Below, piece after piece: positions 2,791-33,000 of a stretch of DNA of 35,463 bases. The notes beneath the pieces are model-generated. The model had not been told where the DNA came from and made no database searches. It was given only the letters and a program-made list of their open reading frames with translations. Location of the stretch: the IMG/VR virus record IMGVR_UViG_3300023435_000062, positions 1 through 35,463 of that record. One strand, written 5' to 3'. This DNA is from a virus. The first letter of the stretch is position 1. Each line of letters opens with the position of its first letter. The position numbers and the translations under genes were made by a program.

Positions 2791-3261
2791 ATGAGAACAC
2801 GAAGAAAGCTCACCCCGGAAGGGGAAGGCTGCAGGATGACGTTCACCATAGAGGGAACCCCGAAGGCAAAGCCACGCCAGACAAAGAGTGATGTGTGGAA
2901 AAAGCGGAAGTGTGTCGTTGAGTACAGAGCGTGGGCCGATAAAGCGAGGGAACGTGCGCCCCTTGATTTACCGGCAGAGCCAAAGACCGTATTGATAAAG
3001 GCTTTTTCTGGAATTCCAATATCGTGGAGCAAGAAAAAGAAGGCAGCGTTAGTAGGGCAGCCACACAGACAGAAGCCGGACTGGGATAATGTCGGCAAGG
3101 CGGTATGTGATGCTTTGTGGAAAAAAGATCAGTTGATCTCTGACGCGTTGGTGATAAAGCGGTGGGACGATGGCAAGGGGGCCAGGGTTGAGGTATGTAT
3201 TGTCGCAAGGAGTTTAGACGATGTCATTGATGCTCTCGGTTTTGGAAAAAAAATTATCTGA
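2791..3261 (+). CDS. rusA: RusA-family Holliday junction resolvase
   Basis: The protein matches RusA endonucleases, which cut four-way DNA junctions as dimers during phage recombination or before packaging. The diagnostic acidic motif KPDWDN lies at residues 95-100, followed by a Asp-Ala-Leu helix at 107-109 and a further Asp at 118. The opening strand with Gly-Thr-Pro-Lys-Ala-Lys-Pro-Arg (about residues 22-29) is also typical. With the ATG at 2791 the protein has 156 residues. An internal ATG at 2836 would begin right at the usual RusA N-terminus and may be the true start. The gene follows the radical SAM stop by one base and overlaps the next gene by 41 bases. Confidence 0.85.
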   Translation: MRTRRKLTPEGEGCRMTFTIEGTPKAKPRQTKSDVWKKRKCVVEYRAWADKARERAPLDLPAEPKTVLIKAFSGIPISWSKKKKAALVGQPHRQKPDWDNVGKAVCDALWKKDQLISDALVIKRWDDGKGARVEVCIVARSLDDVIDALGFGKKII

Positions 3262-3589
3262 TCTTAAAGGCTATGCGAAAGTACATTTTAAATGCGAGAG
3301 GTTAAATGCAAGCAAGGTGTCAAAACGAGTTTGCATTAAGAGGCAGTATTTCGCACAGCAGTGGACCAGGGAAGGGATACAGAAGGTGCGAAGCCCCCTC
3401 CTGTATTCCGAATGTAAGGATTGCAAGAAAGGCCGGAAGATTGCAGACAAGCTAGGGTTGGGTGAGTTCTTGAACACAAAAAAGAAAAAGAGGACGAAGT
3501 GCAGCCGAAAGAGTTGTAACCAAGAAGTGTTTGGCGGTGGCATGTGCCGGGAACACTACTTGAATTATTTTGCAAGGGAAAACGACTAG
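3221..3589 (+). CDS. Small Cys/His zinc-binding protein
   Basis: The 122-residue basic protein has a C-terminal metal site of the form C-x4-C-x9-C-x2-H (Cys94, Cys99, Cys109, His112), a pattern common in small phage zinc proteins related to HNH-type folds. Further cysteines at 65 and 68 may form a second knuckle. I kept the ATG at 3221 because AAGGAG at 3207-3212 is well spaced from it, although it lies inside the rusA gene. The position next to rusA suggests a role in DNA transactions. No catalytic HNH residues are evident, so nuclease activity is not claimed. Confidence 0.6.
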   Translation: MSLMLSVLEKKLSDLKGYAKVHFKCERLNASKVSKRVCIKRQYFAQQWTREGIQKVRSPLLYSECKDCKKGRKIADKLGLGEFLNTKKKKRTKCSRKSCNQEVFGGGMCREHYLNYFAREND

Positions 3590-3610
3590 CCTTTTTACAG
3601 GAGAAAGAAA

Positions 3611-4177
3611 ATGGAAAGAGTGTTTTTAATTAGAAGCGAAGATAGCACGTATGTATGCCCCTCAATCAATGCCACGGTATCACTTGCGAGGAAGTTCTTA
3701 GAAATGGGAGAAGCTGGAGGCGAAAAGCTCTGCATCGAAACCAGGAGCAAGGAATCATTTGATAGTTTTTTGAATGACACTTCCGCTACCGAGCCCCCCG
3801 GCAAAAAGAGGAAATACAAAAAGAGAGAGAAAAAAGAGAAAAAGGAAAAGAAGGTAGTGCCTATCGCTACCAAACGGGGCCGAAAAAGGGGGACACCGGC
3901 GAAAATCATGCTTCTCTTGGGCAGAAAAGGTGAGCTTGCCGTTGATCAGTTACAAGGTGATTTGGGGATCACCGGAGAAGCGGTGAGACAAAACATGCAA
4001 AAATTAATCGCTCAAAAAAAAGTTGAGATCTCCGGGGAAAAACCACGAACATTTAAACTCAAGAACGCGGTTAGCTTTCAATGTGCTGCCAGGGGAAGAA
4101 AGATTGACCTGGCAGAATGTGTCCCGAATGGGGATAACCACGATTGTGAGATTTGTGACTATAAAAATGGAGACTAG
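3611..4177 (+). CDS. Winged-helix DNA-binding protein with Lys-rich linker and Cys site
   Basis: Three parts can be seen. Residues 1-60 form a small domain. Residues 64-94 are an extremely Lys/Arg-rich linker. Residues 97-150 read as a winged helix-turn-helix, with an alanine-lysine-isoleucine helix, a DLGITGEAVRQNMQKL recognition region and a Phe-Lys-Leu wing. The last 35 residues carry four cysteines (158, 170, 179, 182) that could bind zinc. A good AGGAG site precedes the ATG. It is the last sizeable gene before the late-type promoter gap at 4431-4520, so it is a candidate regulator of the structural operon. That role is inferred from position. Confidence 0.6.
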   Translation: MERVFLIRSEDSTYVCPSINATVSLARKFLEMGEAGGEKLCIETRSKESFDSFLNDTSATEPPGKKRKYKKREKKEKKEKKVVPIATKRGRKRGTPAKIMLLLGRKGELAVDQLQGDLGITGEAVRQNMQKLIAQKKVEISGEKPRTFKLKNAVSFQCAARGRKIDLAECVPNGDNHDCEICDYKNGD

Positions 4178-4430
4178 GGAAGAAGATTTTGAAAAATTTT
4201 ACATCTGCCCGGAATGCCACCAGGGAGAATGCTGTGGCAAGCTAGGCTATTTTATTATGAATGATATTTGGGGAAAGTGTTTTTCGTGCTATAAAAAAAC
4301 AGAAAGCAATAGCTGCCCCGACTGCGGATCTACCGGCATACAGATGGAAAAAACTGCCCGTTGGTATATTTGCCACAATTGCCACAAAAGATTTTCTCGC
4401 GCAGAAATGATAGACAAACCCGCCAGTTAA
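4167..4430 (+). CDS. Small multi-zinc-ribbon protein
   Basis: The 87-residue product has four to five cysteine pairs: 14/17, 22/23, 38/41, 50/53 and 69/72. This is enough for two zinc ribbons in series. I chose the ATG at 4167, which overlaps the previous gene by 11 bases. The frame is open further upstream to an ATG at 4023, but that extension only mirrors the winged-helix gene and lacks protein-like character. Two-ribbon proteins of this type usually bind nucleic acids or RNA polymerase parts. The function here is not known. The gene closes the left-hand block before the promoter gap. Confidence 0.6.
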   Translation: METREEDFEKFYICPECHQGECCGKLGYFIMNDIWGKCFSCYKKTESNSCPDCGSTGIQMEKTARWYICHNCHKRFSRAEMIDKPAS

Positions 4431-4452
4431 AAAAATCCATAAAAAAAAAGAC

Positions 4453-4482
4453 TTGACATACTTGTTTTGTTGTGCTCGGAAT
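4453..4482 (+). promoter_or_regulatory. Probable promoter of the packaging/structural operon
   Basis: The 4431-4520 gap is the clearest intergenic space in the left half. It holds a perfect -35 box TTGACA at 4453-4458. The best -10 position (about 4477-4482, CGGAAT) is poor, so help from an activator is plausible. Overlapping this position is a short inverted repeat, GTGC-N7-GCAC, at 4472-4486, which might be an operator. Very AT-rich DNA follows at 4491-4515, directly before the terminase small subunit gene. Confidence 0.4.
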
Positions 4483-4520
4483 GCACCGGCAAATAATTTA
4501 ATAAATTAAATTTTCGGGAT

Positions 4521-5126
4521 ATGACAGACAACAATGAGTTAGTCAAAGAAAAAAAAGAATCCTCTCATGGCAACTCTCTTTATCGGGCAGAGTTTGTTGA
4601 GCTTGTAAGGGCTATCTGCGCCGAAACTTGCCCCACCGATAAACAGATTTGTATAATCCTTGGCAAGTATATCCAGGGGAAAAAACTCGATCACCAAACA
4701 ATTATCAACTGGAGAAATGAATATTCCGACTTCAATAGTGCGCTTATAGAGGGCCGGGATGAGTTTAATAGTAAAGATGTAGAAAAAGCCCTTTTGAAAA
4801 GTGCGAAGGGCTTTCATTTTACAGAGGTAACGAAAGAACCGGCAATTCTGAGAATGCCGGGGAAAGATCCGGCACTCCTAGCAAAAACGCTCCACGTTAC
4901 CAAGCGTGTCCGAAAATTCACACCCCCCAACTCCAGGTCGATTCAATATTTTCTAAACAATAGAAGTCAGGAAAGATGGAAGAACCGGCAGATCCATGAG
5001 ATTACCGGCAAAGACGGAAGTCCGCTTACCATAACCCATGAAGCACGACTAAACGCCATGATGGATGAAGTGAGGGAAATTGAAAGCGCAGAAGCAAAAG
5101 AAGCAGAAAAAACAGCCGAAGTATGA
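4521..5126 (+). CDS. terS: Terminase small subunit
   Basis: The 201-residue protein has the layout of phage small terminases: an N-terminal helix-turn-helix region (about residues 38-72, including a GKKLDHQTIINWRNEY stretch), a conserved segment in which a run of small helices leads to a Lys-Gly-Phe-His motif, and a C-terminal part with the typical NNRSQERWKNRQ sequence (about residues 146-157). It would recognise the packaging site on DNA and load the large subunit. It is first in the late operon and overlaps the large subunit gene if that uses its TTG start. The ribosome binding site is weak (CGGGAT close to the ATG). Confidence 0.75.
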   Translation: MTDNNELVKEKKESSHGNSLYRAEFVELVRAICAETCPTDKQICIILGKYIQGKKLDHQTIINWRNEYSDFNSALIEGRDEFNSKDVEKALLKSAKGFHFTEVTKEPAILRMPGKDPALLAKTLHVTKRVRKFTPPNSRSIQYFLNNRSQERWKNRQIHEITGKDGSPLTITHEARLNAMMDEVREIESAEAKEAEKTAEV

Positions 5127-6774
5127 TGAAACACCCGAAATGATCGAACTCCGAAGATGTACCGGTGTTTCCTTTCAATCCAGGCTAAGGGGCTTTCTTT
5201 ATTTTGTCAATAAATACGTTTGGATTGAGGACAGGAAATCAAAGAGGGCTATTCGCTTTATACTGTGGCCTGGTCAGACGGAAGTCGTACCCAGATTTTT
5301 TAAGTCGAAACTCCTGATTGTTCTCAAGGCAAGGCAGCTTGGCCTTACCTGGCTTACTGCTGCCTATGTTCTCTGGCGCGCAATATTCAACTACCATGAG
5401 TTTATCGTTGTCATAAGCGCAAAAGAGGATCTCGCTATTGAGTTTCTTGATCGGGTGAAATTTATGTTTGATCGGTTGCCCGGTTGGATGAAACCGATTG
5501 TGTTTAAACGATCAACCATTGAACTCACTTTTGGGGTCGAAACCAAAGACGAAAAGGGAAACGTGGTTCTTGAAGGACTCAATAGCGTTATAAAATCCAT
5601 CCCCTCTACTCCCGAAGCCGGTCAATCGAAAACTATCACTCTCCTTATTCTCGATGAATCGGCATTAAACCGCTATTGCAAGGAAATATGGGGCGCTGCG
5701 AACCCCACGCTGGAACACGCAGGAGGACAGGCGATCATAGTTTCTAATCCATCAAAAAATAGACCGGGCTGGCCTTGGACTAGAGATCTCTATACAAAGG
5801 CCATGAAAGGAATGAATAAATTTTCAAGGATCTTCCTTGATTGGCGTTGCGTTCCAGGCAGAGGACCGGACTTCCTTGCGAAAAAGGCCAACGAAGAAAA
5901 CCTGGATGAAGAAGACATACAGATGCAGTATCCTTCAAGCGAAGCGGAAGCGGTCAGCACGTTGGGTGGATCTTACTTCGGCAGATCGCTTGGCGATTTT
6001 GCTGGCGAGAGTGGAGAACGTGGGTATTTCAAAGAGTACAACGGTGAAATTCAGTTTGTTCCAGACAAAAACGGTATAGTTGAGATTTGGAAGCACCCGG
6101 ACAACACGATGCTCAACCGTTACGCTGAAGGATCTGATGTGTCCGAAGGTCTAGGGGAATCGTATTCAGTTGGCTATGCGTATGACCGGCTTGAAAATGA
6201 GTTTGTTGCAAGGATACGCTCAAATAAGATCGATGCTGATGTGTGGGCTGACGAACTGATTTTGCTTGGTAGGTACTATGGTGATGCCATGATAGGCGTT
6301 GAGAGGAATGGTGCCGGCATCACTACTGTCATGCACCTGGCAGAAAAATACGACAACCTGTTTTACCGGAGAAGGCCGGGGAAAATGAAAGGGGCGTATG
6401 TCCTTGAATATGGCTGGCTGGAAACCAGGGAAAACAAACAGATCCTTGCAGACGAATTGAGAAGGCACTATAGGCTGGTTTTTACAAGAGTGCCTTGTCA
6501 AATTCTGATTGATGAATGTTCAACATTTATCCGGCATGATAGCGGAAAACTGGAACACGAAGAAGGGAAGATGGATGATTGCGTTATCGCTGCCGGTGTA
6601 ACCCTTCAAGTCAGCATAATGATGAATACGATAGTTGAGAAGGAAATAAAGCCAGCAAAGAGCATGACGGAAAAAAGAATCGAGGCCCTGGAAAAAGTTT
6701 CAGACGATGATTATGAAACCTTTATGTCCACGGAAAGCCTGAAAACTGTCCAGGACCTTGACAATTATTTTTAA
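5080..6774 (+). CDS. terL: Terminase large subunit (packaging ATPase and nuclease)
   Basis: This is the motor that pumps and cuts phage DNA. The N-terminal ATPase shows a variant Walker A, KARQLGLT at residues 83-90, and Walker B LLILDES with Asp192/Glu193. The C-terminal RNase H-like nuclease shows acidic residues Asp353, Glu408 (GVERNG) and Asp499/Asp500. The length of 564 residues is normal for the family. The TTG at 5080 overlaps terS by 47 bases, after AGGGAAAT. An in-frame ATG at 5140, 13 bases after the terS stop, is the alternative and would lose only a Lys/Gln-rich leader. Confidence 0.9.
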   Translation: MKAQKQKKQKKQPKYDETPEMIELRRCTGVSFQSRLRGFLYFVNKYVWIEDRKSKRAIRFILWPGQTEVVPRFFKSKLLIVLKARQLGLTWLTAAYVLWRAIFNYHEFIVVISAKEDLAIEFLDRVKFMFDRLPGWMKPIVFKRSTIELTFGVETKDEKGNVVLEGLNSVIKSIPSTPEAGQSKTITLLILDESALNRYCKEIWGAANPTLEHAGGQAIIVSNPSKNRPGWPWTRDLYTKAMKGMNKFSRIFLDWRCVPGRGPDFLAKKANEENLDEEDIQMQYPSSEAEAVSTLGGSYFGRSLGDFAGESGERGYFKEYNGEIQFVPDKNGIVEIWKHPDNTMLNRYAEGSDVSEGLGESYSVGYAYDRLENEFVARIRSNKIDADVWADELILLGRYYGDAMIGVERNGAGITTVMHLAEKYDNLFYRRRPGKMKGAYVLEYGWLETRENKQILADELRRHYRLVFTRVPCQILIDECSTFIRHDSGKLEHEEGKMDDCVIAAGVTLQVSIMMNTIVEKEIKPAKSMTEKRIEALEKVSDDDYETFMSTESLKTVQDLDNYF

Positions 6775-7575: not shown

Positions 7576-8097
7576 ATGGCAAAAATCGGAAGGAAGAAAA
7601 GGCCGGGAAGAAAAAGGACAAAACCCCCAATAGTGCGGGCAAAAAAGCAGATGCCAAAGCTGCTTATGAAGTGCCGGATCTGTGAGGAAACAATCGCCTC
7701 ATTTTACCCGGAGAAGATTACGAGGCCCTTAAAGTCAGAAATGTTTGTTGGTATCGACCACACTTATGCAAAGCCTTTTTATGACGGTGTGTTTTGGGTA
7801 GATTTCGTGTGCCCTTACTGTTTAAACCAGCCATTTTGGGTTACTGAAGAAATAGCCCAGGAGTGGAATGGCGGCAAGGGCAAGGGCGTTAATGAAATCC
7901 TTACCGATAAAGGAATATTTCACGTTGATGTCTGCAAGATTTTTACCAGGCAGGGAGAGCCGGTTGAGATGGAGGGCGGTTGGGTATGTAAGCAATGTGG
8001 CAAAACTTTTCAGAAGTCGCAAAGTCTTTCGGCCCACATGAGGGGCCACAAGAAAGATAACCCGCAAACCCCAAAAAAGAGGGCGGTAAATGAGTAA
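7576..8097 (+). CDS. Zinc-finger protein with classical C2H2 finger
   Basis: The 173-residue basic protein has two metal sites. The first is made of CRIC (33-36) and CPYC (79-82), which could form a split zinc ribbon. The second, near the C-terminus, fits the classical C2H2 consensus exactly: Cys138, Cys141, Phe145, Leu151, His154 and His158, i.e. C-x2-C-x3-F-x5-L-x2-H-x3-H. The N-terminal 25 residues are very rich in Lys, Arg and Pro. It probably binds nucleic acid or a head protein. The last eight bases overlap the portal gene, so production of both is likely coupled. Confidence 0.65.
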   Translation: MAKIGRKKRPGRKRTKPPIVRAKKQMPKLLMKCRICEETIASFYPEKITRPLKSEMFVGIDHTYAKPFYDGVFWVDFVCPYCLNQPFWVTEEIAQEWNGGKGKGVNEILTDKGIFHVDVCKIFTRQGEPVEMEGGWVCKQCGKTFQKSQSLSAHMRGHKKDNPQTPKKRAVNE

Positions 8098-10210
8098 ATG
8101 GGCCTATCCAGAGCTATTGCCACCCGAAGGAAATGCGGAAGTCGGCAGCCGGGTGTTTGAATTGCTTGGTAAAATAGTAGCCGATAAGATCAATCTCGGA
8201 CTTCATAAAAAGTGGCTCAATAATTACAAGCTCGGCAGAAATAAGCATTGGAATAGAGAATCGACTACCGTTCCCCTCATAACTGGAAATCTCCTAAATG
8301 TCCATAGACAAAGAACTGTCAATATGCTTACCGATAACAACCCGATCTTCAATGTCGTGCAGCTTGGTGGTAAGCCGGATCAGCCGATTTACGAAAAACT
8401 CCATCAGGCTTCTATGTGTTGGTGGATTGAACAGGAGCAGCAGGACAGGTATGAAGAAAGCGTTTTGAATGGTGAAACCTACGGTGTGTGTATTGAAAAG
8501 AGCATTTTCAATCCCGAATTGGAGTATAACCTGGGTGAAGTCGAAACCGTTATAGTCGATCCTTTCAGGTTTGGGTTTTGGCCTTTGAAATGTAGGGACA
8601 TACAAAAAGCCGAAGCGGTGTTTCACTATTACCCGATGGGTGTTGCAGAAGCAAAAAGAAGATGGCCCAATCTTTCAAACCTGATTAAGCCCGACAGCCA
8701 ATGGTTGAGCGAAATGGGAGAAGAAAGGCGAGAGCTGGTAACTGGCAACAACAAGGATAGTATCACCGCCACAATAGCCGGGACAATAAAAACGCTCTTT
8801 ACCGGTGGGACAGAAAAATCGTATGACGCAGACGATACGCTCGTAGCCGAATGTTGGGCTAAAGACTACACGAGAGATCCAGAAAGCAAAGCATACATCT
8901 ACACAGGAAAGATCAGATGCGTTACCGTTTGTAATGGTGGGAAACTCGTTCTTTCCGACAGACCAAACCCGTCCATTAACCCAAAGTACGATATTAAAAA
9001 AGCGCAGAACTCCTACCTCTACGACAAGTTTCCTTTTATCATGGTGAACAGCGCTAAGGATACCTCAACCGCCTGGGGCAGCTGCGACTTTGAGCAGCTC
9101 GAGCAGCTAAACAGGGAATTCAATAAATCCGTTTCTCAAATGGTGTTTCTCAAAGACAAAGCAGCCAGACCTAAAATCGTCAATCCTAAATCATCCGGCA
9201 TACCGAATAGCCACTTCACCAACATTCCAAGTGTGGTTAATCCCAAAAACGCAGTTGAGGCAGCAGCATTGAGATATATGGACTTCCCAAATATGCCGGT
9301 TGACGTTAAGGAATCAGTAGCACTATTAAAAGAGATTTTCTTCCTGATCTCCGGCTCATTCGATCTTGAACAGGCGCAAACCCCAGGCAGAGAGGTGATC
9401 GCTTACAAGGCTATCGCTGCGCTACTCGAGAAAGCAGCAACTATGATGCGTGGGAAAATAAGGAATTACTCCAGGCTACTTCGGGAACGCGGGAGAATGT
9501 ATTTATCACACTTGCAGAATTGGTACACCGAGGATCGCTGGTTTTACTATGAAGAAGCCGGGGAGTCAAAAACAGACAAGATAAATGCGGAGGAAGTAAA
9601 TTTTCCCGTAAAACTTACCGTTGTTATTGGCTCAATGCTTCCTGTTTCAAAAGTACAGCAAAGAGAAGAAGCCCTGGTCCTCTTTGAGAAACAGGCAATC
9701 GATCAGCAAGACCTCCTTGAAAAACTGGATTGGTCAAACAGGAGCAAGCTGCTCGAGAGGATGAAAGCCGGTCCTTTGGGCGAGCTGGTTATGAAACTTG
9801 AAGCTATGGGCGCACCGGACGAAGTCCTTGAGCTGATCAACATGATTGCACCAATGGAAGAAGAAGATTTTGAAAAGGCAGTCGAGGGTGGGGATCTACC
9901 GCCTATTGATTGGCCCAATGTGCAAGATAAGGAATCGAGGGTCGCGATTGAAAATGACCTGGCTATGGAAAAACTGAAGAAGGAAAGAGCAGACCGGCAA
10001 CTCGTTGAAGAAAAAATCACAACCGAAAGAGTTGAACAGACCATTAAACAGGCCGGCGCCGAATTTGATAAAGAGAAATTAAGGATCGAAGAAAAAAAAG
10101 TAGATGCGGAAATCGAGGCAATCAAAAAAGCCCCCCTTACCCAAACATCGAAAGAAAAGAACGTAACGGAGAAAGGGCTAAAAAGCAATAATGAAAAAAA
10201 TTTGCAATAG
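8090..10210 (+). CDS. Portal protein (P22-like)
   Basis: The 706-residue protein fits large podoviral portal proteins, the twelve-part ring through which DNA enters and leaves the head. The N-terminus (LHKKWLNNYKLGRNKHW region), the DNNPIF motif (residues 82-87) and the central domain with the SAKDTSTAWGSCDFEQLEQLNREFNK region typify the family; the C-terminal 130 residues are a long helix rich in Glu, Lys and Arg, like the barrel of P22 portals. The C-terminal coding region has a second copy inside the gene at 6800. The start overlaps the zinc-finger gene by eight bases. Confidence 0.85.
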   Translation: MSKWAYPELLPPEGNAEVGSRVFELLGKIVADKINLGLHKKWLNNYKLGRNKHWNRESTTVPLITGNLLNVHRQRTVNMLTDNNPIFNVVQLGGKPDQPIYEKLHQASMCWWIEQEQQDRYEESVLNGETYGVCIEKSIFNPELEYNLGEVETVIVDPFRFGFWPLKCRDIQKAEAVFHYYPMGVAEAKRRWPNLSNLIKPDSQWLSEMGEERRELVTGNNKDSITATIAGTIKTLFTGGTEKSYDADDTLVAECWAKDYTRDPESKAYIYTGKIRCVTVCNGGKLVLSDRPNPSINPKYDIKKAQNSYLYDKFPFIMVNSAKDTSTAWGSCDFEQLEQLNREFNKSVSQMVFLKDKAARPKIVNPKSSGIPNSHFTNIPSVVNPKNAVEAAALRYMDFPNMPVDVKESVALLKEIFFLISGSFDLEQAQTPGREVIAYKAIAALLEKAATMMRGKIRNYSRLLRERGRMYLSHLQNWYTEDRWFYYEEAGESKTDKINAEEVNFPVKLTVVIGSMLPVSKVQQREEALVLFEKQAIDQQDLLEKLDWSNRSKLLERMKAGPLGELVMKLEAMGAPDEVLELINMIAPMEEEDFEKAVEGGDLPPIDWPNVQDKESRVAIENDLAMEKLKKERADRQLVEEKITTERVEQTIKQAGAEFDKEKLRIEEKKVDAEIEAIKKAPLTQTSKEKNVTEKGLKSNNEKNLQ
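9956..10123 (+). repeat. Diverged duplicate of the portal C-terminal coding region (copy B)
   Basis: This part of the portal gene encodes the helical tail and aligns with 6872-7039. It is the likely donor, because here the helix continues naturally from the preceding portal domain, whereas in the small gene it is joined to a copied leader. Confidence 0.8.
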
Positions 10211-27000: not shown

Positions 27001-30000
27001 GAAGTAAAGAAGCAGTTGCATATCACAAAGAAGCCAGCCGAAGAAGTAACCGAGAAGAACTATCAAGATTATTGGGATAGTAAATTAAAATTGGGTCGCA
27101 AGGTAGAATTGGCAAAAGACGCTGGATGGATTACCAGGAGTGGCCAATTATCAAAATTGGGAGAAAAAATATCATCATCAAGATGGGAGGAGCTTTCTCC
27201 TGCAGCACAAAATGTATTAAAGCCAAGGATTGATAATTTATATAAGCCCGGAGCCAAAACCAATCCGGTATCCGAGTGGGTAGTTGAGCAGATAGGCAAA
27301 AAGAGGCTTTTCGTTGCCAAAGATCTATTCGACCAGGCCGACAAACATTTTGGTGGCACACAGGCCCAGGGGAAATATGTTGCGAAAGATGCCTATGATC
27401 TGATGGAATTGGGCGTTAATCAATACCTGGATCAAGTCGATCTAACCTCTAATCCTACTGCCGATATAAAACAAGCGAAACAGATCGTTGTTGCATTAAA
27501 GCAGCTCGTCAACAAACTCCCTACCCAAACTAAGAGGACCGAGGAATCAGACGAGTTTCAGCAATTCTCCACCCCCCCTCACCTGGCCTTTGTGGTTAAT
27601 TGGGCTGCCAACCTCAATAAAGATGATGTGGTCCTTGAACCATCCGCAGGGATCGGGGGGATCGCAGTATTCGCTAAACAAGCCGATGTATCAAAGGTAA
27701 TCGTAAACGAGCTTTCTAAAAAAAGGCTGGACCTTCTTCAGCAACTTGATTTCGATGAATACTACAACTTAAACGCAGAGCAGATTGATAACACCCTTCC
27801 CGATACCGTAAAGCCAACGGTAGTCGTAATGAATCCCCCCTTTAGCTCTACCGCCGGTAGGATGGAGGGGAAAAGAGATACTAAATTCGCTACCAGGCAT
27901 ATTGAGCAGGCTATGGCAAGATTGGAACCTGGGGGAAGGCTGGTTACCATTGTTGGCAAGGGAATGGGCCTTAATTCACCGGTCTTCAGGGAATGGTGGG
28001 ATAAGAAAGATTACAATGTAAGAGCCAACATCAGGATAAGTGGCCGGGAATATAAGAAGTACGGCAATACCTTTGACAACAGGATAATAGTTATTGACAA
28101 AACAAGTAAAAAAGCAGATAATATAATAACAGGCAAAGTCGAAAAGGTTGAAGATTTATTGCCTTTATTGGAGGGAATAAGAAATGACCGAGCCTATCCC
28201 GCAAAACAACTCACCACTCAACCAACTGGCGAAAAAACACCTACTGAAAGTGGACAAGGAGTACAGCGACCGGCATCTGTACCATCTCCAACTGGCGTTG
28301 TGGGCATTGGACAAGGGGGAGGTGGAACTGAAGGACAAAAGGCCCCTGCTGGTGAACGTGGAGGAACTGCTACTCCAGTGGAAACCGGAGAACGCCCACA
28401 AGTTCCTACTTCTAAACCAATCGGAGGACAACCTGGAACCCCAACTGGTGAACGAGAAGGCAAGCCCCCAGGAGTTAGCCCTGGGCATACTCCAAGTGCT
28501 GGACAGCAAGCTAGTGGAAAGCCAGACGAACTATCCAAGCGCAAGCGACCTACCCTAAAACCCAAGAAATTTACCGATTCAGTTTTCGAGGATTTTGAAC
28601 CGGAACAAGCTCGAATAGAAGGCTCGAAACCTCACCCTACCCCATTAGTCCAATCGGCAGCCATGGCTGCGGTTGAGCCTCCAGGAACAGACTACATCCC
28701 CAACCTACCAAAAGAACCCATCAAGTCAGGCGCTTTAAGCAGCGCGCAGCTAGATCCTATTATCGGCGCTGGTCAGGCCCATTCCGAAATATTGCCGAAT
28801 GGAGAAAGAAGGGGTTATTTCATCGGTGATGGCGCAGGAGTGGGAAAGGGCCGAGAAATTGCCGGTATCCTTTGGGATAATTGGAACAGAGGCAGGAAAA
28901 AGGCTGTATGGGTTTCTGCGAAATGGACACTTTTTGAAGATGCCAAGAGAGATGTAGAGGACATTGGATGGGATAAAACCCTTCTTTTCAAACAAGGGCA
29001 TGGGAATTATAAAATATCAGATGAATTTAAAGAAGAAGAAGGGATTGCCTTTACTACCTACAATACTTTAGTGAAGGAAAAAGGCGAAGAAGAAACCGAG
29101 GTATCCCGATTAGAGCAGATCAGAAAATGGTTTGGTGAAGATTTTGACGGAGCAATCGTCTTTGACGAATCGCACAAAATGGGAAATGCCCTGGAAGTAA
29201 AAGGAAAGATGGGAATCTCAAAACCCTCCCAAACTGCACTAAAGGGTATCGACTTTCAAAGGGCGTTTCCTAACGCCAGACTTCTCTATGTATCAGCCAC
29301 AGGCGCAACGGAAGTATTGAATCTTGCGTATGCTGAACGCCTGGGGTTGTGGGGAGAGGGGACGGCATTCGGGAAGAAAACCTCTTTTGTCAATCAAATA
29401 GCGAGTGCCGGTCTTGCAGCCATGGAGCTTGTGGCCAGGGACCTAAAGGCATTCGGCAGTTATGTTTCCCGATCACTTTCTTTTGATGGAGTTGAATACC
29501 AAAGAGTTGAACACAAATTAAACGAAAAGCAGAAAAAAGAATGGGATATAGTTGTAGACGCATGGCAAATGGTACTTGACAATATTGAAGATGCCCTGGG
29601 CGTAACCTCACAGGATTCAAACTCGAAAAGCAAAAGATCTATTAATTCTCGTTTTTGGAATGAACACCAGAGATTTTTCAACCAGGTCCTCACTACCATG
29701 CAGATGCCTTCGGCCCTGGAACATGCCAAAAAGGAAATAGAAAAGGGAAATGCGGTTATCTTCCAGCTCGTTAATACCAATGAGGCCCAACAGCAGAGAT
29801 CATTTGCAAAAATGCAGGAAGGTGATGAGATAGAAGATCTCGACATGACCCCGAAGGAAAGGCTTATTGACTTTGTTGAAAATGGCTTTCCTACTCAACA
29901 ATACGAAGAATTCACAGATCCAGATGGGAATACTCGCTCAAGGCCATTGTTTAATGCGGATGGCAGCAAGATGGTTAACAAGGAAGCCATGCGCTTGAAA

Positions 30001-33000
30001 GAGCAACTCTTAAACCAACTTTCCGGGCTAAAGGGGTTAGCAGGTCCCCTTGATGCTCTTATTGATTTTTTTGGCGCAGACAAGATTGCTGAAGTAACAG
30101 GGAGGGGCCGAAGGGTTGTAGTAGATCCCAACACAAAGAAAAAGATAATACAGAAAAGATCACCGAGTTCAATAAAAGCAGAAGTTGATGATTTCCTTGA
30201 CGATAAACTACAAGCCCTAGCGTTTTCCGATGCTGGTGGAACAGGGGTAAGCTATCACGCTGACAGGCGATATAAAAACCAGAGAAAGAGAATCCACTAT
30301 GTTCTTCAAGCTGGTTGGAGAGCTGATAACGCAGTTCAGGGAATGGGGAGATCTCATAGGTCAAATGAGGCCCAACCGCCCGAATATGTGCTAGTGCATA
30401 CCGACCTTCAGGGTCAAAAGAGATTTATCTCGACCATTGCCCGAAGGCTGGATCAGCTTGGCGCATTAACAAAGGGGCAAAGACAGGCCGGTAGTCAGGG
30501 AATCTTTAAGGCAGCCGACAACCTGGAAAGCTCTCATGCCAGGGATGCCCTACGAGTATTTTTAAGAGACATTGTAAGTGGAAAAATCCCCGAAATTTCC
30601 GTTGAAGAATTTGAAAAACAGACGAGGTTAGAAATAGTTGACGAGCATGGGAACATACTCTCAAATCTTCCAGAAATGAATCGGTTTTTAAACCGGCTAC
30701 TTAACCTCAAAGTTGATTTTATGGATAAGGTCTTTGATGCTTTTGAGCAAAGGCTACAAGACAATGTAAGGGCGCATGAGGAAGCAGGTACCCTTGATGT
30801 AGGCATCGAGAATCTTACGGGTCAGAGCGTTGATAAAGCAAGTGAGCAAGTAGTATATACGGATGAAAGAACAGGCGCAGAAACGAAATATGTTGAGCTA
30901 GACGTTGTTAAGCCAGCAGAGAGATTAACCTTTGAAGATGCCAAAAGTCATTTTAGGGGTGGGAAGGGATTTTACCAAAACAAGCAAAGTGGAATGGTAT
31001 GGGTATCTTCAAAAGAGCGAGATCATACTGACCTTACTTCGGGTGTTGCAAGAAGGGTCTTTCATCTTGTTAATGCCGGTAGCCATAGACAAAGAGTATA
31101 CACATCCACCCTTGAAGATAGCGATAAGTGGGAACATCTGACTCCTGAAGAAGCAGCGGGGATTTGGGATAAGGCATATAGTGAGATGCCAGCTACCAGG
31201 ACCGAGCGACACAATCTTGTTACCGGTGCGATACTTCCCGTGTGGGATCGGCTCCCGACCAAACATACCAGGGTATTAAGAACACAAACATCGGAAGGAG
31301 AGCTTCTTTTAGGCCGAGTTGTTCACCCCAATGAAGTACAGGAAACCTTAAAGAAACTAGGGGCAACTGCAACCGGAGTAGAATTAAAACCATCGGAAGC
31401 CTTTGATAAAATTTACAATGAACGGTATCAGGCAGAGCTTTCAAATGATTGGAAAATCGTCAATCGCAGGGTAGCCGGGGAATCGAGAATAGAGATTATT
31501 GGCCCCGATTGGGAACACACAGAAGAATTAAGAAAACATGGAGTATTTACAGAGCGCATAAATTATAATCTTCGTTACTTTATCCCGGTAGGCGATCAAG
31601 GCATTAAAACCTTTGAAGCAATCATCAAGAATCGGCCCATCATCCAAATAACCCCGCCATCTTCTGCCCGGTTTGCCAGGGCAGCTAAAGAGGCTACCGG
31701 AATTCCTGTTGAGGAAATAAATAATACAATCAACCCCATCTTAAAAAACCTCAAAGGATTAACCCCTGGGGTTAATGTGGTAAATTCAATCTCCGAACTG
31801 TCTTCAGAGCTGCAAAAGGAGGCAAAGAAGGTAGAAGGCGCAGGGGTAAAGGCTGTATTCGACAAGGAAACCAACGAAATAACGCTTGTTGCCGAAGGAT
31901 TTTCAAGTGTTGATGAGGCCAAGGAAGCACTTTTCCATGAGCTGTACGGCCATTTTGGCGCAAGGAGGCTTTTTGGCAAGGCTTTTGATCCTTTCCTGGT
32001 ACAAGTCTATAATTCCTATGGGCCTAAAAAGTTAAAGGACATCGCAGATCTCTATGGACTTGATTTCAGCAAAAAGGAAGATCGGCTTACCGCAGCCGAA
32101 GAAAAGCTGGCACAGATGGCCGCGAAAAATGAAAAGCCTGGCCTTTTAAGAAGGATATATGCCTATATCAAAAACTGGTTGCGAAAGATGGGGTTTAACT
32201 TCAAGATTACCGATGATGATCTCAAGATAATTGTTTGCGCAACAAAAAGGGCTATAGAGGAAGGATATGACATCGGAGAATTAAGGGGTGCTGCAACAAA
32301 GTTTGCCAGGGAAAGAGAGCCGGTAGCGGTGAAGGCCGAAAAAGTCCTCAAACAATTCCCCGTAAAATATGAAGGGATACAGAAAGGCTTTATGGGGCAG
32401 GAAGATGTAGTTGCCTTTAAGGACAGGAAGAAAAAGCTGCACTTTATACCGGTATCAGAGTTTAGCGAGGAAGCAGTCAGGAAGAAATTAGGGATTAAAG
32501 AGCCTTCAAAACAAATGGGTTTTAAGTTTGCCAAAGAGAAAGAGGTATCTCCCACTAAAGAGCCGATGGCAGCGCTACCCACTCAAGTAAGGCCGAGGAT
32601 CGAGGCAGCGAGAGGGATACCTAAAACACCTATATTGGAGAGAGCAGAAAGACTAGGAGAGAAGATAAAGGCATCTACAACTCGTCATTTTGCAGATCTC
32701 GATCCGAAACTTCACGCATATGCTATAAACCAGTTGAGAAGGTTTCAGGAGATCGGGGAAGCGACAAAAGAATCGGCCCTTAATTTTCTAAAAGATACCC
32801 TGTCTGATTTAACCCCGGCTGAATATGATGCGTTCTCTATGAATCTACTTTTGTCCGATATGCTGCATGATATTGATGCTATCTCCGATCCGGAAACCGG
32901 CAAACGGTTACTAGATCCGGCTGACGGACTTCCCTTTGAATTTAAAGACAGGGCAGAAGTAGTCAGCACGTTGAATAAGTTTAAGAAGATGGCAGAAGAA

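Follow-up and report, generated by a model that had tools for sequence, protein, structure and literature searches.

In phage lambda, the small gene Rz1 is fully nested within Rz, on the same strand and in a shifted frame. A comparable layout has been described for the ShiLan element, an HNH homing endonuclease with a GTG start that lies out of frame in actinophage methylase genes and shows a scattered distribution (PMC11855218). Nested out-of-frame genes are thus a known kind, and ShiLan, residing in a phage methylase, is a direct precedent for the layout of the locus analysed here. The DNA methylase-helicase dyad of polyvalent proteins, including DarB of phage P1, was described by Iyer et al. 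in 2017, with the Methylomonas SnoC-wHTH protein WP_020485828.1 as an example; a text search of that paper for 'overlapping' and 'alternative frame' retrieved neither term (PMC5512222). P1 also encodes the small helper proteins Hdf and DarA, both required to package the DarB methylase-helicase into the virion (PMC12810830).

The window, that is, the whole 35,463-base stretch of viral DNA that was analysed, carries terminase, portal, major head and head-closure genes (PHROGs). The sole match of its portal protein (8090-10210) among 50,697 phage records was Methanosarcina virus MetMV at 24.5% identity, which places this phage at a distance from sequenced isolates. A Radical SAM domain protein (phrog_9298) is encoded near the contig start (1956-2789). 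Downstream lies a giant polyvalent gene with the domain layout of the published dyad (PMC5512222), in which an adenine-methylase-like domain with an NPPF motif precedes a Strawberry-notch SF2 ATPase and which occurs in phages and conjugative plasmids. Although the methylase match falls slightly below its Pfam cut-off (1.4e-4), the translation contains VVVMNPPFSS, and the gene was classed as DarB-like on the fusion of an adenine-methylase domain bearing NPP(F/Y) to an SF2/Strawberry-notch ATPase. To this known architecture our analysis adds a second gene, nested within the first (Table 1).

Table 1. Features of the giant gene and of the frame nested within it (window positions).
Feature	Position	Strand	Basis or remark
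Giant host gene for a polyvalent protein of at least 3818 aa	24010..35463	+	ORF still open at window end
Methyltransferase domain (MTS) of host protein	27625..27972	+	Weak Pfam match; NPPF motif in translation
Shine-Dalgarno-like GGAGG of nested gene	28170..28174	+	Inside host codons Leu-Glu-Gly
In-frame TAA shutting the +1 frame	28178..28180	+	Window sequence; translation 'WRE*EM'
Nested +1-frame gene, 124 aa, predicted all-helical, new family	28184..28558	+	ORF listing, relatives, AlphaFold
AAA_34, Strawberry-notch-type helicase N-terminal domain of host protein	28630..29547	+	E 5.9e-113
Helicase_C_4 (Strawberry notch C-terminal) of host protein	30046..30810	+	E 1.1e-82

An earlier note on this DNA had pointed to a 124-codon frame wholly within the giant gene, over the linker that joins methylase and helicase, and to an ATG preceded at nine bases by GGAGG; the coordinates were verified, and both signals were found in the window sequence, the ATG starting nine bases 3' of GGAGG. 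The frame is +1 relative to the host frame, and the host residues above it are those of a G/P/T/Q-rich linker (24 G, 19 P, 15 T and 10 Q of 125). The same note had urged caution because of minus-strand frames in the area. Two such ORFs do exist (28165-28509 and 28218-28565), but they are not conserved: the three minus frames are open over the nested ORF in 8, 11 and 10 of the 73 relatives that carry it and the +2 frame in none, against 73 of 73 for +1, and the minus-strand ORFs were ruled out as genes.

Conservation was assessed in 84 relatives, the window included, drawn from viral contigs, plasmids and bacterial genomes by host-based searches and aligned over methylase and helicase; they were picked by the host protein alone and not by the ORF. 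A +1 ORF of 87-145 codons, starting on the methylase side, was present in 73 of the 84. Among the carriers are Methylotuvimicrobium buryatense 5G and Methylomonas plasmid carriers (loci L015 and L003). By the criterion of the earlier note, the idea would fall if relatives with an open linker had stops in the +1 frame or had lost its ATG; instead, host and +1 frames are both open in 72 of the 73, and the ATG is retained at the identical host position in 71. The nested products align across relatives and share an N-x-x-P-[LIV]-N motif plus other conserved positions. Linker length tracks the presence of the nested gene: the ORF is absent from all nine loci with linkers of at most 90 host codons and present in 73 of the 75 with linkers of at least 120. 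The gene-less loci comprise alphaproteobacterial and cyanobacterial ones with 15-90-codon linkers and one viral short-linker locus (L087), together with L086 and L089, which have long linkers and no clear nested homologue. In eight loci (L005, L022, L064, L069, L077, L082, L083 and L084) the linker extends to 243-413 codons, and additional sequence separates the nested gene from the helicase.

The gene is unannotated. In the plasmid records of relatives, the annotation under the nested match consists of the host gene only, or of nothing. In the Thioflavicoccus plasmid pTHIMO01 (L004), the methylase-linker-helicase part (3001-5589) is open and has no gene in the annotation, which assigns one only to the helicase C-terminal part downstream.

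An open +1 frame is by itself weak evidence here, since a +1 stop requires a host codon whose second base is T, and the linker has few of these, so that such stops are scarcer than usual. Under host-synonymous shuffling, the frame remained open in 32% of shuffles as a mean over relatives; for the window the value was 4%, and 0.25% with codon shuffling. The Leu-rich make-up of the product is likewise partly mechanical, as host NCT codons are read as CTN in +1. Substitution patterns are more telling. In close pairs, the usual excess of third-position differences in the methylase and helicase parts is gone over the nested ORF, so that the suppressed synonymous change proposed as a check in the earlier note was found and is limited to this ORF. 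Between L003 and L034, differences at host positions 1/2/3 number 5/2/36 in the methylase, 12/4/3 in the nested region and 11/4/87 in the helicase; pooled over 171 non-independent pairs, the counts are 7596/4142/20457 in the methylase flank, 8626/5647/4556 in the nested region and 8208/4714/26939 in the helicase. Sliding windows place the third-position drop over the nested ORF, most clearly in L034/L003, L010/L011 and L015/L038. Along the giant gene, no second overprinted region was evident in these three pairs, window/L039 and L002/L041 being partly saturated. When 13 independent pairs are compared by the codons of the nested frame, the differences at positions 1/2/3 number 256/233/454, a coding-frame pattern. 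The substitution signal of the window and its nearest relative, L039, is modest on its own because their nested proteins already differ by 56%. In the reverse direction, the host frame stayed open in 72 of 73 relatives against 4.1 expected were the nested codons swapped for synonyms.

Collectively, these comparisons show the nested ORF to be a genuine +1-frame protein-coding gene in a DarB-like linker, with both frames under selection; we place at about 0.94 the probability of a dual-coded gene with a product of its own. Of the two frames, the nested one shows the stronger conservation, and linker length follows the gene, so that the nested gene looks to have shaped the linker and not the other way round.

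The nested proteins constitute a new family. Pfam, NCBIfam, PHROGs and PADLOC contained no family for them, giving only sporadic single-member or weak matches, and a PDB sequence search gave no convincing match beyond sporadic or weak ones. A tblastn search of phages and plasmids with the window's product returned no matches, because the family diverges fast and only a profile built from the host-anchored relatives detects its members. AlphaFold2 predicted a confident, mainly helical structure for the window protein (pLDDT 82.6, pTM 0.75) and for a Methylomonas member (pLDDT 89.9, pTM 0.84), in agreement with the folded, Leu-rich helical product anticipated in the earlier note. Foldseek against PDB and BFVD yielded no match with E < 0.001, and the best VIA-align Z was 2.7; therefore no known fold was recognised, and a new fold is not thereby proven. 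An acidic DNA mimic of the Ocr or ArdA antirestriction type was considered and ruled out, because the net charge is modest rather than very highly negative: the window protein has -6, and the median over the family is -7 for a length of about 120 residues.

The profile also detected members that stand alone as genes, in the phylum to which a Syntrophaceae genome belongs. There, a chromosomal gene of ~120 aa without a Pfam or NCBIfam name (L134, L136-L142 and L144) comes close to being core in one bacterial class, where 37 of 46 genomes have it as a single copy. These homologues begin at the matching place, just ahead of the shared N-x-x-P-[LVI]-N motif, and have a conserved motif of their own, W-R-P...N-F-F-M...H-F-P. 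Eight of the nine have no other open frame across them; L144 has a minus-strand one. In a tree that is not rootable, they cluster with good support as a single group close to the window's clade. No methylase-helicase was found next to them in the loci looked at, and their neighbours vary and give no consistent functional hint. In two loci (L167, 737-1624; L153, 5086-5908) the homologue either shares one 295-aa open frame with a NUDIX hydrolase gene or overlaps or abuts the end of such a gene, and a functional link to NUDIX is possible. A further bacterial genome (L143, 1492-1825, minus strand) holds a remnant of the nested gene with host linker and neither methylase nor helicase, which is a decayed mobile element.

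As to mechanism, the nested gene would be translated from its own Shine-Dalgarno sequence and ATG by internal initiation on the giant host mRNA. The product would be a distinct protein of ~14 kDa, mildly acidic and mostly helical, synthesised alongside the giant protein. With less certainty, this protein may serve the methylase-helicase machine as a dedicated partner until the latter acts on incoming DNA, for example by keeping it inactive or soluble or by aiding its entry into the virion or transfer complex. The proposal draws on the occurrence of the nested gene solely inside this host gene in the mobile elements examined, across several phyla, on the co-inheritance of the two genes, and on a parallel with P1, whose Hdf and DarA offer a possible model of how such a protein might work, although these are separate genes and no homology to them was seen in family libraries. 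We regard the partner role as tentative. The free-standing homologues, with no methylase-helicase nearby, speak against a role wholly dependent on the giant protein, and they fit an alternative in which the small protein acts on a cellular target without the giant protein as its partner, its place in the giant gene serving co-expression and compactness only. That alternative leaves unexplained why, in mobile elements of several phyla, the gene is never found outside this one gene. Given the free-standing genes, we consider the two roles about as likely as each other, each falling somewhat short of an even chance.

Two further explanations concern whether a separate, resident gene exists at all. 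Programmed frameshifting, which is common in phages, could join the nested frame to the methylase as a fusion without a separate protein, and the overlap of both frames on one strand is compatible with this. However, the TAA two codons ahead of the window's ATG shuts the +1 frame, the free-standing homologues start at the same place as the nested genes, and the initiation signals are enriched above what the host codons require: against host-synonymous shuffles, the ATG was observed in 72 of 73 relatives (31.7 expected) and Shine-Dalgarno 4-mers in 58 of 73 (33.9 expected). Frameshifting is accordingly very unlikely.

A selfish homing insertion would resemble ShiLan, with which the locus shares an unannotated gene lying out of frame within a phage methylase gene whose own frame is kept free of stops (PMC11855218). 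Unlike ShiLan, the nested gene has an ATG and a Shine-Dalgarno sequence, sits in an interdomain linker and gave no match to a nuclease family, HNH included (68 members against Pfam, NCBIfam and PHROG). It is also near-universal in long-linker relatives rather than scattered. Divergence of the nested gene correlates with that of the host gene (Spearman 0.34, Mantel p 0.001), and distant hosts were not found to have closely similar nested genes. From this we conclude that the two genes are passed on together and that the nested one is no homing element; the homing explanation retains scarcely any probability. Weakest of all, a chance open frame, with ORF and Leu-rich composition as by-products of a hydrophobic-poor linker that rarely yields +1 stops, draws some support from the mean shuffle result but not from the window's own value, leaves the fixed ATG, the protein conservation, the third-position suppression, the free-standing homologues and the confident predicted fold unexplained, and can be set aside.

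With a separate, co-inherited gene as the preferred reading, its history can be considered. The host tree, rooted at the midpoint only, places the main gene-less group within gene-bearing groups, which suggests that this group may have arisen by loss of the nested gene. A gene born by overprinting within a phage or plasmid anti-restriction gene might have escaped to become a near-core chromosomal gene of a bacterial class, an origin that we consider conceivable but somewhat doubtful. Equally open is the opposite direction, in which a small gene resident between methylase and helicase was swallowed at their fusion and the linker is the overprint. As regards the direction of origin, codon usage looks more normal in the nested frame, which fits local usage better than the linker frame does.

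The nested gene resembles lambda Rz1 in lying wholly within another gene, on the same strand and in a shifted frame, and differs from it in function, in having a giant polyvalent gene as host and in having free-standing chromosomal homologues; we know of no sequence relation between the two. As far as the literature was searched, the protein family, its residence in DarB-like linkers over phages, plasmids and several phyla, and the free-standing cellular form are new.

Documented cases of long, ancient overprinted genes common to phages, plasmids and several bacterial phyla are few, since annotation pipelines leave such genes out; here each claim has many natural replicates. Since a free-standing cellular version exists, tests of function and of the direction of gene birth can leave the host frame intact. 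The finding adds a nearly always present extra protein to DarB-like anti-restriction machines, and suggests that the disordered linkers of other polyvalent proteins should be scanned for hidden genes.
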